DNA of 64,000 nucleotides, from the NCBI GenBank assembly GCA_030745755.1, contig JASLOA010000008.1, positions 1-64,000 on the forward strand, given 5' to 3'. Positions within the stretch are counted from its first letter, which is position 1; each line of letters starts with the position of its first letter. The notes under the pieces were generated by a model that saw only the letters and a program-made list of their open reading frames with translations, did not search any database and had not been told where the DNA came from. Below, one piece after another: positions 14,590-50,529 of the stretch. The position numbers and the translations under genes are program-made. This stretch comes from Kiritimatiellia bacterium (lineage in GTDB: Bacteria; Verrucomicrobiota; Kiritimatiellia; UBA8416; JABMPJ01).

Positions 14590-14780
14590 GTTACCCCACT
14601 TTTCGCGCCATTGGCTCATAGGAGATCCCTCGACTTCGCTCGGGATGACAGCTTCCGAAGGTTTCTTGTCATGCCGAGCGAAGCCGAGGCATCTCAGCCT
14701 TCGAGTTGGCTCGTTGGCTGTTCCAGATCCTGAATGAGAACGGACCTTTGTTTTCGGGCGTTTTCAGAGCATTGGCTTGG
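14590..14780. repeat. REP-like palindrome copy 1, inside a larger repeat
   Basis: Two imperfectly inverted arms, GAGATCCCTCG...CTCGGGATGACA and TGTCATGCCGAGCG...GGCATCTC, span 14621-14696. This is the first of seven copies in the window. The flanks also recur: the right flank (GTTGGCTGTTCCAGATCCTG, to about 14780) aligns with the right flank of the copy at 50441, so these two belong to a longer element of roughly 190 bp. No gene is visible in the 306-bp gap that it occupies. Confidence 0.85.
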
Positions 14781-34549: not shown

Positions 34550-34640
34550 AGGAGATCCCTCGGCTTCGCTCGGGATGACAGCTCCGGAATTGCCGAGTTT
34601 TCTAAGAAGTTGTCATGCTGAGCTTGTCGAAGCATCTCCT
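34550..34640. repeat. REP-like palindrome copy 4
   Basis: GAGATCCCTCGGCTTCGCTC then GGGATGACA, and the inverted TGTCATGCTGAGCTTGTCGA then AGCATCTCC. The left flank (CCCCAGTTTCGAGCCTTAGG) resembles those of copies 1, 5 and 6. It fills the 264-bp gap between galE and the COG3014 gene. Confidence 0.85.
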
Positions 34641-34701: not shown

Positions 34702-35847
34702 CTACGGGGGCGAGCTCCGCGCAAACGTCACAAAGGTGCTGCGCCGCCGGGTGAGCGGCGTGCTGAAGACTTCCTGGCCCTGAATGGAGCCGTTGTGGCC
34801 GCGATAGACCAGTTTGACCCGGCGCAGGTCATCAGGGCATTTCACGCGTGCCACCTGCAGCGAAAGCGGGAGCGTTTCCCAGCGGCGTTCCGGCTGGCCC
34901 TCGAAGGCGAACATGGCGATCCAGAGCAGCATGCCGAGGGCGGGGTTGTCCTCCCCAACAGAGGAGGCAAGGCCCTCCTTTATGACAACGCGTGAGATCT
35001 CCTTGGCCGCGCGGATGGCGGCCAGCTTGTCCTGGGTCCGGTCATAGAGCATAGAGGTATTGCCCAGGGCATAGCTGCGGCCCAGGAGTTCATTCTTGGC
35101 GTATACTTCAACAAAGGGCGTGGACCCCCAGCGTCCCCGGCCGCGTACGCGTCCGTGCCCATCCGGTCCCCGCCCGATACTGACAAAGCAGAGCAACTCC
35201 GCTCCCTCGGAGCGGGCGCGATTCTGCTCATCCGTCGCTTTGCCCTCGCTACTGGGGATGATCGTGCCGGTGGAGGTTATGGCGAGTGTCGCGGTCAAGC
35301 TGTCAGCCGCTTCATACTGACGACGGGCACCATCGGCATTGCCGATGAGCTCGAGGCAGAATGCAGCGAGATAGCGGCTGTAGGCGTCGTCGGGAAACCC
35401 GTTGAGGTTCTCGAGACGATCAATGACGTTGCGCGCTTCGACGGCGGCATCATCCCACAAGGCCATCGCGAAGTAGTTCAGGGCGCTGAAGGCGTGCAGC
35501 AACGTGCGCTCGTAGGGGAATCCGCGGAAGGTCTTGACCCGGTCACTCGTTACGAAGCTGGCGGTCTGCCGCGACACGCTGACCTTGTCGAGTCGCTCAA
35601 TCGTCTCCACGGCCTCAAGCCAGTCCGCGGCCGAGGCCTTGTGCCGGCCGGAGGCATGTTTGACCATGCCGCGTTCCATGAGAAGCAGGACGTGGTCGGT
35701 GTCCGCTGTGGTCGCATCCTGCAGCGTGGTGGTGGCGCTGGCGAGGTCTCCCTCGTAGAAGTCCTTGCGTGCACGGGATAGCTGGGTGGTGGCACACCCT
35801 GAAAGACCGGCCGTCACCAGTATCAGTGCCAGTGCGCGCGTGCCCAT
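34702..35847 (-). CDS. COG3014-type lipoprotein with tetratricopeptide-like repeats
   Basis: A 381-residue lipoprotein (lipobox LSGC, from the ATG at 35847, which has GAAAGG upstream). The helical N-terminal part (KDFYEGDLASATTTLQDATT; VVEARNVIDRL-type repeats) is TPR-like, and the C-terminal beta-rich region contains VKLVYRGHNGSIQGQEVF. The family (COG3014) frequently sits beside lpoB, as here. It is probably anchored in the outer or inner membrane facing the periplasm; function unknown. The open frame continues 9 codons upstream into lpoB. Confidence 0.75.
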   Translation of the reverse strand: MGTRALALILVTAGLSGCATTQLSRARKDFYEGDLASATTTLQDATTADTDHVLLLMERGMVKHASGRHKASAADWLEAVETIERLDKVSVSRQTASFVTSDRVKTFRGFPYERTLLHAFSALNYFAMALWDDAAVEARNVIDRLENLNGFPDDAYSRYLAAFCLELIGNADGARRQYEAADSLTATLAITSTGTIIPSSEGKATDEQNRARSEGAELLCFVSIGRGPDGHGRVRGRGRWGSTPFVEVYAKNELLGRSYALGNTSMLYDRTQDKLAAIRAAKEISRVVIKEGLASSVGEDNPALGMLLWIAMFAFEGQPERRWETLPLSLQVARVKCPDDLRRVKLVYRGHNGSIQGQEVFSTPLTRRRSTFVTFARSSPP

Positions 35848-35867
35848 CCCCAACTGCCTTTCGCCTG

Positions 35868-36476
35868 CTACCATCCGATGATCGGCTTGCGGGCACGGCG
35901 CATGCGCTCAACCTGATTGCGGAGCACGATCAGCCCGGTCTCAAGATCGGTGATCTCGCAGGTCAGCATGAAGAACTTGTCCTCTTTCTTGGAGACACGG
36001 ACCTGTCGCCCTGAGCGGCTGGAGATCTCGGTAAGGGATCCGGTAAGCATGTATTTGGCACCAAGCTGTTTGCCCACGGCGACACGGCTTTCAGGAGTGG
36101 CGTTCTGAAGCTGGTAGCCTTGCTCGCGCAGCAACTCATCGCGTCGGGCGGTATTGGTCAGCATGATCTTTCCGCTGTCGAGCAGTTTTCCGCTGATGGT
36201 GTCCGAAAGCGATTCAGTATCCAGGTGCTGCTTGGTCCGGTTCTGAATTCCAAAAACGGACACGATGGGGCTCTTCGCGCCTTCGGGCGGGAACTGCTTG
36301 AGAATGAGGGTGGTCATCTCATCGGTCCAGGAGAGCAGGTCTCTCTGGTCGTAGTTCGCGGTCAGCGTGGATGCATCGTTAGGATCCACGTCCTTGACGG
36401 ATGTGCGGAAGGCCGCGCATCCGGTCAGGAGAGTCAGTGCTACGAGGGCCAGGATTAGTGAACTGAGTGACTTCAT
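35868..36476 (-). CDS. lpoB: Penicillin-binding protein activator LpoB-like lipoprotein
   Basis: A 202-residue lipoprotein (lipobox LLTGC) with the LpoB segments VKDVDPNDASTLTANYDQRD, a FGIQNRTKQHLDTESL loop and LGAKYMLTGSLTEISSRSG. In E. coli LpoB is an outer-membrane lipoprotein that reaches through peptidoglycan to stimulate PBP1B. Start ATG 36476 follows an AGGAGGATT-like site; the frame upstream is not coding. It is 55 bp downstream of a Nudix gene and upstream of the COG3014 gene, in the same transcriptional direction as the stator-like genes. Confidence 0.82.
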   Translation of the reverse strand: MKSLSSLILALVALTLLTGCAAFRTSVKDVDPNDASTLTANYDQRDLLSWTDEMTTLILKQFPPEGAKSPIVSVFGIQNRTKQHLDTESLSDTISGKLLDSGKIMLTNTARRDELLREQGYQLQNATPESRVAVGKQLGAKYMLTGSLTEISSRSGRQVRVSKKEDKFFMLTCEITDLETGLIVLRNQVERMRRARKPIIGW

Positions 36477-36531: not shown

Positions 36532-37050
36532 TCAGCCCTCCGAAGCAACCACGCGATGATCCAGCATGGTATCGTCGTCAAAGATGAAGTGGCCGGTGAA
36601 AGGCGTTCCACTGAGCAGGTGCGGAAACCACACGGGATCATCGGCCCACATACGATCATAGGGAATGGCGTCGATGGCGAACCACTCGGGAATGGCCTCG
36701 TCTGTCTCAATCAGCTCACCCGTGAAATTCGAAGCCCGGAAGACTTCGCCGCGCAGCCCATAGCCATCCACAAACTGGAAATGGAGCCGTCCGGCATACT
36801 CAACGCCAGTGGGCGTCACGCCAATCTCCTCCTCCGTCTCGCGCACGGCGCACTGCTGCATCGTCTCGCCGGGTTCAACCCGCCCGCCGGGACCGTTGAT
36901 CTTGCCTTTGCCCAGACCACGCAGCTTGTGAATCAGGAGAATAGACCCGTCGCGAATGACAAAGAGCAGCGTAGCATCTTCCGTGGGCTGCCAGGTCTTC
37001 CAATCAATAGCATCAACACGAGCTGGAATGGCTGCCTCTGGCGCGGTCAT
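36532..37050 (-). CDS. Nudix hydrolase (MutT/MTH1-like)
   Basis: A 172-residue hydrolase with the full Nudix box GGRVEPGETMQQCAVRETEE followed by EIGV, and the substrate-site segment NGPGG. DPVWFPHLLSGTPFTGHFIF near the C-terminus is characteristic of MTH1-like 8-oxo-dGTP diphosphatases. Start ATG 37050 overlaps the stop of the large coiled-coil gene by ATGA, so it is in the same operon, though a link to envelope function is not evident. Confidence 0.88.
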   Translation of the reverse strand: MTAPEAAIPARVDAIDWKTWQPTEDATLLFVIRDGSILLIHKLRGLGKGKINGPGGRVEPGETMQQCAVRETEEEIGVTPTGVEYAGRLHFQFVDGYGLRGEVFRASNFTGELIETDEAIPEWFAIDAIPYDRMWADDPVWFPHLLSGTPFTGHFIFDDDTMLDHRVVASEG

Positions 37051-39335
37051 TGCGCAATTTCCAGGTTGTCTTCCCATTCCAGCTCGAGAGTCGGATTCCC
37101 GGGATCGGCGTTCCAGTCCTCGACGAATACCTCCACACGGTTGCGGAGCAGGATGCTGGTCATATGCCGTACCTGCTTGCTGCCCACCAGGACAGCCATC
37201 TTCAGATCCAGCGAGCGGAAGCGCTGGAAGATCCCCAGCAGAACAGGCGTATCCGACCGCTTGACTGCTTTGCTCCTGGCGGCTGTCGCGATGGCGGGCT
37301 TGATGGCTTCGTAGATGGCATCGACTGAGTGTTCGATGTTGCCGGCGTCAAAGGCGATCCGGTGTGACACCCCATCTCCGTTAAGCAGAACGGCCTCGCT
37401 CTGTTGGCCTGCATCGCGGAAGAAGAGCACAAAATCGAGTGTTTCGAGCATCTCTTCGATCGTGACGGACGTGGCGTCCTCTGGCGTCTCCTCGGGAGGA
37501 GGCTCCTCTACGATCTCCTCCACGGTCTCTTGCTCGGGTGCGGGCTCCGCAGCGGCCTCGGCTTTCTCCTCGGCTTCCTTCTCCATTTGGGCCTGTTGCG
37601 ATTCGAAAAGCTTGCGGACGGTCTTGTCGAGCAGGTCGAGTGTGCGCGCAAACAGATCGGGGTAGGGGAGCTTCTGCTTCTCGGCAGTGGCGATCCAGCG
37701 ACGATTCAATTCGCCTGTCCAGTCGGCCGCGATCTTCTCAATGGGGCGTCCGGACTCGACATCCTTCTGAAGGCGAGGTGTCCAATCCTTCTCCAGGAGA
37801 TGCAACTGGTTGCCTTGCTCGCGCATGGCGCGGCAGGCGGTGGGGATAAGACGGTTGCAAGTGTCTATGACCTTTCTCTGCGCTTCGTCCAAAAGCCGGC
37901 CTTTCTCGGCAGGGGCCACGATGAGTTCAGCATCCTGCAGCGACAGCCAGGCGTCTTGCAGCTTCTTGACCGCTTGGCAGCGGTCTGCAACCCAAATGGC
38001 CTCAACAGCTTCAGGAGTAAGGGCTTCAAGCGTAGCAGGGAGCGCTCCAAATGCAGCGCGCAACTGGTCCTGCGCAACGCGCTCTCGTATCTCGGGCAGC
38101 ATACGGTCAAGCTGTTGGGCAACCTGGCCGCTTACAGACGTGGCAAGGCGGGCATTCCCGGTGAGCAGATCACGGATGCGGGTAAGGAAGGCACTGTCAT
38201 CGCGCCGCCCGGCGCGAGTGGCGAGCTGTTCTGAGAACCATGGTGTGAGATCAGACGTGTAGCGGCTGAGGAGCTGTGTCCGGCTCTGTTTCTGGTTGCG
38301 GTGGGCCGCAAGATCAGATCGTATTGTCGACTCAACGGCGGCGGTCTCCAGGGGGATGTCGTTGCTGCGGCGGATAGCGGCATCAAGGCGTTCTTCTTCC
38401 AGCACGCCAGCCATGCGGTCTGCTTCCTGACGGATCACGGTAAGCGGGCCATAGATGGTGGCACGTTCGTCCGGGAGATTGCGCATCTCTTCGACTTGCA
38501 GTGCTTGGATGGCCGTCTCTGTGGCTTTCTGCAGCGAGCCACGTATGCCTTTGGCGTCAATCGCGTGGTCAGGCAGTGTCTTGGCCGCCTTGCTGAGCGA
38601 CGTGAGTTGGTGGTTGTACTGCGTTCTGACCTCGCCAATGACCCGCTGCGCGGCTTCGCGCGTGCTGTGCTGGACCTCTTTGAAGAGCGGCCGATCCGCA
38701 GGCGCGGCGAAAGAAGAAAGCCAGTCGGTTAGGCCGTCCAGATCCGCCGACTGTGGAGGATGATGCCCGGTGCTACCTGCGAGTGTTGTCAGACGTGCGT
38801 CCAGTTCCTTCTCGGTTGGCATGCGGATAAGCCCTTTCAGCTCATCCCGTTGAAGGGCGACGCTCTGCCTGCGGGCCTGGCTGAAGGCGCTATCAATGCT
38901 GCGGGCCGCGAAGGCGTCGGCCTCGGTCCTGGCACGCCGGGTCCAGTCATCGCCCAGCAGAGCTGCCACGTCCTCCCGTTTCAGGGGCAGGGCCGAGTGC
39001 TCGCGGGCGCGGGCGACGGCATCGTCGATGCGGCGGTCGAGGGCGCGCAGGCGCTCATCAACGAGATGTTTGAGACAGATGGTGCGGCTGGCCTTGGGGT
39101 CGCCATGCGCCTTGACGTCCTTGCGCATGCGGGCGCCGAGCTCCGCCACCAGCTCACGTTCGCCGTCTTCGGTGGTGACGGGTGCGGCCTGCAGAGAGTC
39201 TACGATCTTCTGTGCTGCGGCACGCACGGCAAGCTGGCGCTTGGCGCGTTCACGTGCACTTACGTGGGGCTCCTCGCCGGGCGCTACGGAGCTGATGCAT
39301 GTCATGAGGGCCAGTATGATGGCGATACGCTTCAT
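37047..39335 (-). CDS. Large secreted helical/coiled-coil protein of unknown function
   Basis: A 762-residue protein with a signal peptide (MKRIAIILALMTCISSVAPG) and no lipobox. Most of the chain is highly charged and helical, with heptad-like stretches, for example around residues 90-170, 250-350 and 470-560. An acidic Glu/Pro-rich linker (about 590-640; EEIVEEPPPEETPED) follows, and then a compact C-terminal domain of about 115 residues (LDFVLFFRDAGQQSEAVLL; VLVGSKQVRHMTSILLRNRV). I do not recognise a family. The start overlaps the stop of the ExbD-like gene (ATGA) and it has GGAGAGGGAT upstream. Position and topology suggest a periplasmic partner for the membrane pair. Confidence 0.8.
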   Translation of the reverse strand: MKRIAIILALMTCISSVAPGEEPHVSARERAKRQLAVRAAAQKIVDSLQAAPVTTEDGERELVAELGARMRKDVKAHGDPKASRTICLKHLVDERLRALDRRIDDAVARAREHSALPLKREDVAALLGDDWTRRARTEADAFAARSIDSAFSQARRQSVALQRDELKGLIRMPTEKELDARLTTLAGSTGHHPPQSADLDGLTDWLSSFAAPADRPLFKEVQHSTREAAQRVIGEVRTQYNHQLTSLSKAAKTLPDHAIDAKGIRGSLQKATETAIQALQVEEMRNLPDERATIYGPLTVIRQEADRMAGVLEEERLDAAIRRSNDIPLETAAVESTIRSDLAAHRNQKQSRTQLLSRYTSDLTPWFSEQLATRAGRRDDSAFLTRIRDLLTGNARLATSVSGQVAQQLDRMLPEIRERVAQDQLRAAFGALPATLEALTPEAVEAIWVADRCQAVKKLQDAWLSLQDAELIVAPAEKGRLLDEAQRKVIDTCNRLIPTACRAMREQGNQLHLLEKDWTPRLQKDVESGRPIEKIAADWTGELNRRWIATAEKQKLPYPDLFARTLDLLDKTVRKLFESQQAQMEKEAEEKAEAAAEPAPEQETVEEIVEEPPPEETPEDATSVTIEEMLETLDFVLFFRDAGQQSEAVLLNGDGVSHRIAFDAGNIEHSVDAIYEAIKPAIATAARSKAVKRSDTPVLLGIFQRFRSLDLKMAVLVGSKQVRHMTSILLRNRVEVFVEDWNADPGNPTLELEWEDNLEIAQ

Positions 39336-40072
39336 GGTGATCCCTCTCCTTTTCCGTACTCGGCGCGTACGGACGCGACAAGCGGATAGCCGCGCTTGTC
39401 GAGTTCAGATGCGATGTGCTGCAGTTGGGAGCGCGCATCAGCAGCACCGGCCTGGTCGGCCAGCGGCAGGCGGGCGGCGACATGGCCAACGGTTTCCCAG
39501 TGCAGACCCGCAATACGATCACTCCATTGGGCCAGTCTTTGGGCAATGTAGTCTTCAGCGTAGGCGGCTTCCGGGCTCCCTGGTTCCAGTGTGAAATCGG
39601 CCTCCGGGACGAGCCTGGCTACCGCGTCGGGGGTACCGGCGGTCTGAGTGGCAAGTGCGGCACTGAGAATGCTCCGCTGCAGGCGCTCGTGATCGTCTAG
39701 CTCCCCGGCCTTGCGACAGAGCTGACTGAAACGCGGATCCTCCGGCCAGGCGTCGGCAAAGACCACATGCGAGAAGTCAGGGAAGAGCGCCAGGTTCGCC
39801 TCACGCTCCCACGCATCGATCTCCCGATCAATACGCAGAATGACCTGCTGTTTCCATAGCTCCATGACGGCGGGTCCCGTATCCTGTTGCGCCATCATGC
39901 TGTGCGCCACCATCGTGAGACGGGTCGTGATGGCCAGGATGAGAATCAGGGGCAACGCAATCTGCACGAGGACATCGTTCGGACTGTGTGTGTAGAGCTG
40001 CGTCTGCGACCGATTGACCAGGGCATCTATCTGTCGCGCCGCACGCCTGGCGTTGTAGCCTGTCTTAGCCAC
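39332..40072 (-). CDS. ExbD/MotB-like single-span membrane protein
   Basis: A 246-residue protein: a short basic cytosolic N-terminus, one membrane span (residues about 34-55, VLVQIALPLILILAITTRL) with an aspartate at its cytosolic edge (D33, in SPNDVL), and a periplasmic domain of about 190 residues. An Asp at the start of the single span is the proton-site arrangement of MotB, ExbD and TolR. No OmpA-like peptidoglycan domain is recognised. I place the start at GTG 40072: AGGAGG lies 8 bp upstream, and this gives an 8-bp overlap with the upstream gene. The longer frame from 40183 would overlap by over 100 bp. Confidence 0.65.
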   Translation of the reverse strand: MAKTGYNARRAARQIDALVNRSQTQLYTHSPNDVLVQIALPLILILAITTRLTMVAHSMMAQQDTGPAVMELWKQQVILRIDREIDAWEREANLALFPDFSHVVFADAWPEDPRFSQLCRKAGELDDHERLQRSILSAALATQTAGTPDAVARLVPEADFTLEPGSPEAAYAEDYIAQRLAQWSDRIAGLHWETVGHVAARLPLADQAGAADARSQLQHIASELDKRGYPLVASVRAEYGKGEGSP

Positions 40073-41174
40073 GGGAGCTGCCTCCTGCAAACGTGGCGAA
40101 TGCTTTGCGTAGCTGACTACGTTCACTGTCGGCGGCAGCGGATTCATCCTCGACCGCTTTGCGCAGGGCGGTGAGCTGTTCAACCGACTCGCGCCGTTCA
40201 GACCGGACCTCGGATAGCAGCTCGCCGAGGAGTTCGGCGACGCGCGTTTCTGTCTGAATCATGCTTTCAAGCAGGCCGGCAGCCTGGTCGAAACGTTGAC
40301 CTGTCTGGCTGACGTTCTCCGCAATGCCGTCCAGCTTCTCTAGCTGCGCGACACCATCGCGCTGTCCCGCCTCGAGTCGTTCGAGCCCGCTCGCCGCGTT
40401 TGTGATCGCCGAGGTCTGCTCGTTGACGGCGGTCTCCATACCGCGTACGGCGTCCAGCGCTTCGGAGATGGCGTCGGGTTGCAGTCCGGCGCTGAATTCA
40501 CGGCTGGCGGCGCTGAGCGCCTTCAGGTCGCGGGTCAAGTGGTCGATCGTATCGGCCAGGGACCGCTCCTCCTCGACGGGCTCGATGCAGGCGGCGCGCT
40601 CGAAAAGATAGGGCAGCGGCTTGGCGGCCAGGAAAGCGCCAATCAGGCCGATCAGAGAGCTCAGCAGGGCCGTGGCGGTACCGTCCAGCAGACGATCCAG
40701 CACAACAGGGAGTTCTTCGGCGTTTGGCACGCGCTCGGTCATCGCCGACACGCCGCTGACGCTCAGGCCAATCCAGAGCCCATAGAGTGTGCCGGTCAAT
40801 CCCAGCATGACGAGGAAGAAAGGGAAGTGGGCCGGGTAGGGTAGCGCTTCCATGGCATGGATGGATGCGATGTCATCGTGTGGGCGACGGAGAATCCGAA
40901 GGCTCTGTACCAGCGGGAATGCCAGGAGCAGAAGCGGGACAAGCGTGGAGACGGTGCTGAGGTCTCCGGACAGAAACACCAGGATGTGTAGCAGCGTGCC
41001 CGGATTCTCACCGATAAGTCCCGGCCAGGAGGGCAGCACGCCGCGGAGGGCCACCTCCAGGTTGACACACCACGCCATGAACGCGGGGATTGCCAGCAGA
41101 AGAGAAAGAACCGCGACACCGGTCAGGCGTGCGCGGCGTGAATTGACGTCGTCGGTACGGTCATGAGTGCTCAT
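40065..41174 (-). CDS. MotA/TolQ/ExbB-like channel protein with coiled-coil tail
   Basis: A 369-residue membrane protein with hydrophobic segments at about 18-38, 75-92, 117-137 and 166-188. The last two, FPFFLVMLGLTGTLYGLWIG and GTATALLSSLIGLIGAFLAA, match the paired pore helices of the MotA/TolQ/ExbB family. From residue 200 to the end the chain is a long cytosolic coiled coil (for example ETAVNEQTSAITNAASGLER). Such tails are known in ZorA but not in ExbB or TolQ. It is the first gene of the operon and probably forms a proton-driven stator with the next gene product (inference). Confidence 0.7.
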   Translation of the reverse strand: MSTHDRTDDVNSRRARLTGVAVLSLLLAIPAFMAWCVNLEVALRGVLPSWPGLIGENPGTLLHILVFLSGDLSTVSTLVPLLLLAFPLVQSLRILRRPHDDIASIHAMEALPYPAHFPFFLVMLGLTGTLYGLWIGLSVSGVSAMTERVPNAEELPVVLDRLLDGTATALLSSLIGLIGAFLAAKPLPYLFERAACIEPVEEERSLADTIDHLTRDLKALSAASREFSAGLQPDAISEALDAVRGMETAVNEQTSAITNAASGLERLEAGQRDGVAQLEKLDGIAENVSQTGQRFDQAAGLLESMIQTETRVAELLGELLSEVRSERRESVEQLTALRKAVEDESAAADSERSQLRKAFATFAGGSSRG

Positions 41175-41261: not shown

Positions 41262-41338
41262 AGGAGATCCCTCGGCTTCGCTCGGGATGACAACTCCTTA
41301 GCGTTTTGTGTCATGCCGAGCGCAGCCGAGGCATCTCC
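41262..41338. repeat. REP-like palindrome copy 5
   Basis: GAGATCCCTCGGCTTCGCTC then GGGATGACA, and inverted TGTCATGCCGAGCGCAGCCG then AGGCATCTCC. It lies in the gap between the PLD gene and the stator-like operon. Confidence 0.88.
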
Positions 41339-50440: not shown

Positions 50441-50529
50441 TGTAGTAGGAGATCCCTCGGCAAGCTCGGGATGACAGTTCGTTAGTGTTCTCTGTCATGC
50501 CGAGCGAAGTCGAGGCATCTCCTACTACA
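50441..50529. repeat. REP-like palindrome copy 6, inside a larger repeat
   Basis: Extended arms TGTAGTAGGAGATCCCTCG and CGAGGCATCTCCTACTACA flank the usual core. The left flank (ACCCCAGTTACGCCCATCC) and the right flank (GTTGGCTATTCCAGATTCTG, to about 50610) align with those of copy 1, defining a larger element. It separates the toxin-antitoxin pair from the lipid-kinase gene. Confidence 0.88.

Follow-up and report, generated by a model that had tools for sequence, protein, structure and literature searches.

We describe a triplet of overlapping genes, here called A, B and C, found in a stretch of 64,000 nucleotides from a Kiritimatiellia bacterium (assembly GCA_030745755.1, contig JASLOA010000008.1, positions 1 to 64,000; hereafter the window). 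The three genes probably encode an ion-driven inner-membrane motor of the MotA/TolQ/ExbB class that has its own periplasmic output or anchoring part, the product of C. What is new, and well supported by sequence comparisons and predicted anatomy, is the putative combination of a motor of this class with an axle of unfamiliar periplasmic fold and a dedicated exported rod protein. Few ion-driven motors of the 5:2 type are understood to date, namely the flagellar, Ton, Tol, gliding and Zorya motors. A further motor family with its own axle and an exported third part would widen the range of what such motors drive and of how force passes across the periplasm. The host bacteria are mostly uncultured and the biology of their envelope is almost unstudied.

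The genes lie on the minus strand, and we checked their frames, starts and overlaps on the raw sequence. The original prediction, made from the letters of the DNA, had given coordinates and lengths and described the three genes as overlapping, and all of this agreed with the check. The 3' end of A is CGTGGCTAA; the GTG start of B lies within it, 8 bases from the end of A and downstream of an AGGAGG. A and B overlap by 8 bases, B and C by 4 (ATGA, i.e., the ATG start of C and the TGA stop of B). Open frames of more than 1000 residues in three genomes had suggested a fusion of B and C; this was ruled out by an in-frame TGA between the two genes. The genes and their parts are the following, where TM stands for transmembrane span and pLDDT for the predicted local distance difference test of AlphaFold2.

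40065..41174, minus strand: gene A, 369 residues, pore or ring subunit of the MotA/TolQ/ExbB superfamily by family and profile evidence
40617..40826, minus strand: predicted pore-forming core of A, from TM3 (residues 117-141, GLTGTLYGL with the invariant T129) to TM4 (161-186, GTATALLSSL with S172/S173), placed by identity and by alignment to ExbB
40077..40616, minus strand: cytosolic coiled-coil tail of A, residues 187-366, better conserved at its tip (346-366)
39332..40072, minus strand: gene B, 246 residues from a GTG start, putative axle subunit with a single span and D33 at its cytosolic edge
39899..39985, minus strand: span of B, residues 30-58, with S-P-N-D33-V-L-V-Q, placed by invariant positions and identity
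39335..39874, minus strand: periplasmic helical domain of B, residues 67-246, in the AlphaFold2 model, with no known fold recognised
37047..39335, minus strand: gene C, 762 residues, predicted exported periplasmic partner
37554..39257, minus strand: all-helical region of C, residues 27-594, pLDDT mostly 85-95
37464..37553, minus strand: disordered linker of C rich in Glu and Pro, residues 595-624, from composition and a pLDDT below 50
37065..37460, minus strand: end domain of C, residues 626-757, modelled by AlphaFold2 as strand-strand-strand-helix-strand-helix-strand

The order A-B-C recurs far more often than expected by chance. Of 95 related genomes, 11 had A and 12 had C, and these were almost the same genomes. 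The gap between A and C was constant at roughly 730 bases, the length of B, and the DNA of these loci showed the full triplet. Using B as a query in named genome contigs, we obtained 17 loci, mostly labelled Kiritimatiellia/Kiritimatiellae or Verrucomicrobia, including Kiritimatiellota bacterium B12222 (CP120722.1) and two labelled uncultured Opitutales. Since the genome of B12222 is complete and not labelled as a metagenome assembly, an experimental strain may exist. The loci fall into two clades: clade 1 has 18 loci, including the window, and clade 2 was represented by about 30 compared loci, the first 20 of which were counted in detail. In clade 1, A and B are adjacent in 18 of 18 loci and C is directly downstream in 17 of 18, the exception being isolate GH20, where C is on another contig. 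Across the whole class the distribution is sparse: clade-1 B occurs in 16 of 346 genomes, and C in 54 of 346 (20 of 121 genera). The additional C proteins lie behind diverged A and B, which make up clade 2. There, the order A-B-C is present in 17 of the 20 counted loci. Of the other three, one carries B-C but no detected A, another begins within C, and in the last C stands alone, with A-B on a different contig of that genome. The three proteins keep this order in most of the roughly 30 loci. A search with clade-2 C over a sample of the phylum added a further class with 8 genomes, all of which have A-B-C (8/8). The original prediction had made recurrence outside this genome a decisive point, and the triplet is indeed conserved in Kiritimatiellia and in at least one further class of the phylum, with relatives reaching down to about 18-40% identity. 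Comparisons between the profiles of the two clades joined them for each protein, with E 6e-15 over 148 columns for A, E 1.4e-4 over 148 columns for B (score 37, at most 22 for shuffles), and E 1.4e-33 over 655 columns for C. Hence, the triplet is an old unit and not a local accident.

By its sequence, A belongs to the MotA/TolQ/ExbB superfamily and, in clade 1, is closest to ZorA. PF01618 (MotA_ExbB) matched 15 of 15 clade-2 A proteins (best E 8.4e-6), one of which was shown to exceed the curated cut-off (25.5 bits vs 22.9). Against the ExbB set of the genome itself, the A profile scored 36 for clade 1 and 38 for clade 2, no shuffled control exceeded 18, and the clade-1 alignment paired GLTGTLYGL with GLLGTVYGM and TALLSSLIGL with EALVTTAAGL. 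When the membrane core of clade-1 A was compared with the PDB, ZorA was the only relevant match (E 0.004). The core of the A protein of the window also matched the ZorA models of PADLOC and NCBIfam, weakly and without reaching the curated cut-off (22.7 bits vs 500 for NCBIfam). The expected relation of A to the MotA/ExbB fold was thus recovered at the sequence level in three ways, by PF01618, by the ExbB profile and by the PDB match to ZorA. ExbB has three spans, while MotA has four and a large cytoplasmic loop; by hydropathy, four spans are predicted for the A protein of the window and for most of its relatives. In other words, the ExbB-like channel of the original prediction stands as to superfamily but not as to the number of spans (four predicted, not the three of ExbB), and its nearest known subunit is ZorA rather than ExbB.

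Conservation in A peaks in the predicted pore helices. Among diverged members, pairwise identity reaches 0.87 for TM3 and 0.81 for TM4, compared with 0.2-0.55 in the rest of the protein. Of the Thr/Ser residues in the GLxGT and ALxTT motifs, T129 and S172/S173 are invariant in clade 1; those of clade 2 are T126 and S156/T157. The cytosolic coiled coil of about 160 residues that had been announced after the last span was recovered at residues 187-345. No other part of A is as poorly conserved (identity 0.215), and the tail is much shorter in part of clade 2, where the whole of A has 249-300 residues; its profile and NCBIfam matches are generic coiled-coil proteins. As this tail varies in sequence and length, the constant output seems to be periplasmic, via B and C.

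The main rival explanation takes the opposite view of the tail. A possible reading, which we nevertheless consider unlikely, is that the system works like ZorAB, with the coiled coil of A acting in the cytosol and B and C only anchoring the motor to the cell wall or gating it. Both systems have a pore subunit with a GT[FL]YGLxIGL-type core and a cytosolic coiled-coil tail, whose tip is somewhat conserved in A, and a single-span acidic partner. For ZorAB, cryo-electron microscopy gave a 5:2 architecture (PMC11890865) with a Ser/Thr ring, and both the ZorA tail and peptidoglycan binding by ZorB were required for function. In the triplet, however, it is the periplasmic parts of B and C that are kept while the tail is not, A has four predicted spans, and a third, exported protein is present. 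Furthermore, neither a ZorB-type peptidoglycan-binding domain nor ZorC, ZorD or ZorE was found in the three proteins or in conserved neighbours. The same ZorA-like core and tail might suggest a Zorya-related system of phage defence. This is highly improbable, since no nuclease, helicase or other effector gene is conserved beside the triplet, C is predicted to be exported, and B and C had no hits in PADLOC.

B is a putative axle subunit, assigned solely by its anatomy and gene position. All 18 clade-1 proteins have a single predicted span and a basic N-terminus, and carry the motif S-P-N-D33-[VA]-L-V-Q at the start of the span, with N32, D33, L35, V36 and Q37 invariant. With the GTG as residue 1, the numbering of D33 is correct; the residue sits where the only predicted span (34-52) begins. 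Apart from a few exceptions, clade 2 carries x-D-[DE]-x-x-[GA]-[LIV]-x-L-Q, whose second position was always Asp or Glu in the sequences compared. Counted from the shared Gln, the acid of clade 2 comes three to four residues earlier and so lies further out by one helical turn. Both clades keep an acid at the cytosolic edge of the span, while the proposed site at D33 itself holds for clade 1 and not for clade 2. Conservation in B is highest in the span, with an identity of 0.74 against 0.28-0.45 elsewhere. An ion-driven 5:2 motor would be expected to show just this pattern, with conservation concentrated in the pore helices of A and in the acid-bearing span. The periplasmic part of B is all-helical in the AlphaFold2 model save for a small hairpin, with a pLDDT of about 90 in most of the domain. 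It matched no fold in the PDB (best E 2.5), and neither the model nor this search showed an ExbD/TolR alpha-beta or OmpA-like periplasmic domain. B had no hit in Pfam, so that no ExbD, TolR or OmpA domain was recognised there either.

C was predicted to be exported on account of a signal-like hydrophobic stretch at its N-terminus, with no further spans. Its AlphaFold2 model (mean pLDDT 85) agrees with the exported, helical protein of 762 residues with an acidic linker and a compact end domain that had been proposed. No credible relatives of C were found in Pfam, NCBIfam or the PDB, and its helical region gave no significant match in Foldseek. Pfam and span prediction revealed neither a TonB/TolA C-terminal domain nor an N-terminal membrane anchor in C; the TonB/TolA and OmpA domains were said from the outset to be missing, and Pfam searches and models bear this out. 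The vWA fold was not among the Foldseek matches listed for C, which also differs from it in strand order (b-b-b-a-b-a-b) and has no anchor. Foldseek did relate the end domain to uS11/RNase H-like folds (E about 0.1-0.6), which we took as common topology only. Of the structure and profile comparisons proposed for the three proteins, the one for A succeeded by sequence and profile, whereas the models of B and C found no significant fold match. Apart from the span of B and the signal sequence of C, neither protein has a membrane part, and neither has a known domain. Most clade-2 C proteins have the same layout, including a linker of similar composition. A genus-level group of loci (L113-L120 in our numbering, L117 excepted) combines a short A tail with a C end domain that ends after its first helix.

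When the C end domains of both clades were aligned together, they weakly matched the ExbD/TolR periplasmic domain over a helix-strand-helix stretch of about 42 columns (E 0.002-0.003). The score was 20-21, whereas shuffles reached no more than 13 and reversed profiles 10-12. Homology to ExbD was undetectable for the clade-1 end domain by itself, and the match arises only with the clades combined. As this comparison was picked after viewing the sequences, we regard the match as a lead and not as a result. It raises the tentative and rather doubtful idea that, in a motor driven by the proton-motive force, the ExbD/TolR-type periplasmic domain has moved from the axle to the far end of the C rod. 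If so, the axle and the working head would be separate proteins, joined by a helical arm of 570 residues and a flexible acidic linker.

In the arrangement we favour, the 5:2 stoichiometry, the ion, rotation, the B-C contact, the direction of work, the cargo and the end-domain target are inferences. It would operate as follows. A most likely forms a pentameric ring, in which TM3 and TM4 would line the pore and T129 and S172/S173 would make up a polar ring. Two copies of B would set their single spans in this pore, with D33 carrying the ion. Ions flowing from the periplasm to the cytosol would make ring and axle rotate relative to one another. Through the helical periplasmic domain of B, the motion would be passed on to C, a soluble, exported rod of helices, which may reach outward and end, after the flexible acidic linker, in the compact alpha/beta domain. 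This domain might contact peptidoglycan, an outer-membrane partner or a substrate.

The same parts could also be read as an ion channel, or a sensor of the envelope, based on the ExbB fold, where B and C would gate the flow and report the state of the envelope without mechanical work. In line with this, our domain and neighbour searches found no cargo, outer-membrane receptor or transducer domain, and C, large and with a flexible linker, resembles a sensing arm. We nonetheless find this quite improbable: the family keeps its pore motifs and the paired acidic residue, and the characterised members of the superfamily with a paired single-span acidic subunit are motors, as is established (PMC9389320, PMC12204202).

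Several observations weigh against an ion-driven motor with C as its periplasmic part. The A protein of the window is below the curated cut-off of PF01618. D33 is not invariant in position across the family, as it is found in clade 1 only, and single clade-2 B proteins have H-E or E-E in place of D-[DE]. Homology of B to ExbD was undetectable by sequence profile with either 11 or 41 ExbD sequences: hhalign gave a score of 13 for clade 1, inside the shuffled range, and 21 for clade 2, against 19 for the best shuffle. The partner called ExbD-like in the original prediction thus deserves this name for a single span with an acid at the cytosolic edge, encoded next to A, but not for sequence homology. 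Among G331 (loci L125/L188), G328 (L185/L189), G032 (L043/L044) and G028 (L042), three genomes encode C apart from A-B (for G328 another contig yielded only a fragment of B), and one has C with neither A nor B detected. Lastly, we found no conserved neighbour beside the triplet loci that points to a task.

The genome of the window (3.1 Mb) also has 8 matches to canonical ExbB/TolQ-type and 11 to ExbD-type proteins, none of them at the triplet locus. Since these canonical genes are present elsewhere, the triplet is not the housekeeping Ton/Tol system. It shares with ExbBD-TonB and TolQR-TolA the superfamily of A, the single-span acidic partner and a third protein acting in the periplasm. Unlike in these systems, C has no membrane anchor or TonB/TolA C-terminal domain, B has no detectable ExbD/TolR domain, and A has four spans and a coiled-coil tail. 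As in MotAB/PomAB, a four-span A subunit is paired with a single-span acidic B subunit, but A lacks the large cytoplasmic loop between TM2 and TM3, B lacks an OmpA-like domain, and there is no flagellar context. GldLM, the motor of type 9 secretion and gliding, likewise pairs a ring subunit that extends into the cytosol with a partner whose periplasmic part is large; in the triplet this large part is a separate protein, and there were no Pfam hits to GldM or GldL. A further likeness is with the vWA force transducers of Proteobacteria and the PVC group, where motor genes adjoin a new periplasmic output protein (PMC12204202, section 8). These transducers are membrane-anchored and end in a vWA (Rossmann-type) domain, whereas C is soluble, forms a predicted helical rod and has another strand order in its end domain. 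The same section reports vWA transducers next to motor genes from Verrucomicrobia and Tichowtungia and states that further systems remain to be found. Recent surveys cover the relatives of MotAB, with ZorAB and GldLM regarded as remote (PMC12505986). We found no description of the triplet in the literature searched, as far as its text was accessible, with most subscription journals outside the search. As Pfam recognises neither B nor C, nor the A protein of the window, the family is easy to miss.

The genes that recur beside the triplet are same-genus duplicates, members of broad families, and a family-2 glycosyltransferase directly after C (four loci, one family). The latter, whose sequence is of the lipopolysaccharide-core type, comes after C or overlaps its end in L111, L117, L124 and L186; L117 also has LpxD- and Skp-like genes upstream of A. 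In the window, the triplet is followed by two lipoprotein genes at 35868-36470 and 34702-35874, named LpoB-like and TPR-like by the appearance of their sequences, and this pair recurs beside the triplet in the same genus. The window also contains six copies of a palindromic extragenic repeat (TGTCATGCCGAGCGNAGCCGAGGCATCTC and its complement), of which shuffled sequences had none. Its sites are 41264-41337, 14622-14695, 34552-34580 and 50493-50521, and one pair of copies lies between gene A and the phospholipase-D-like gene upstream of it.

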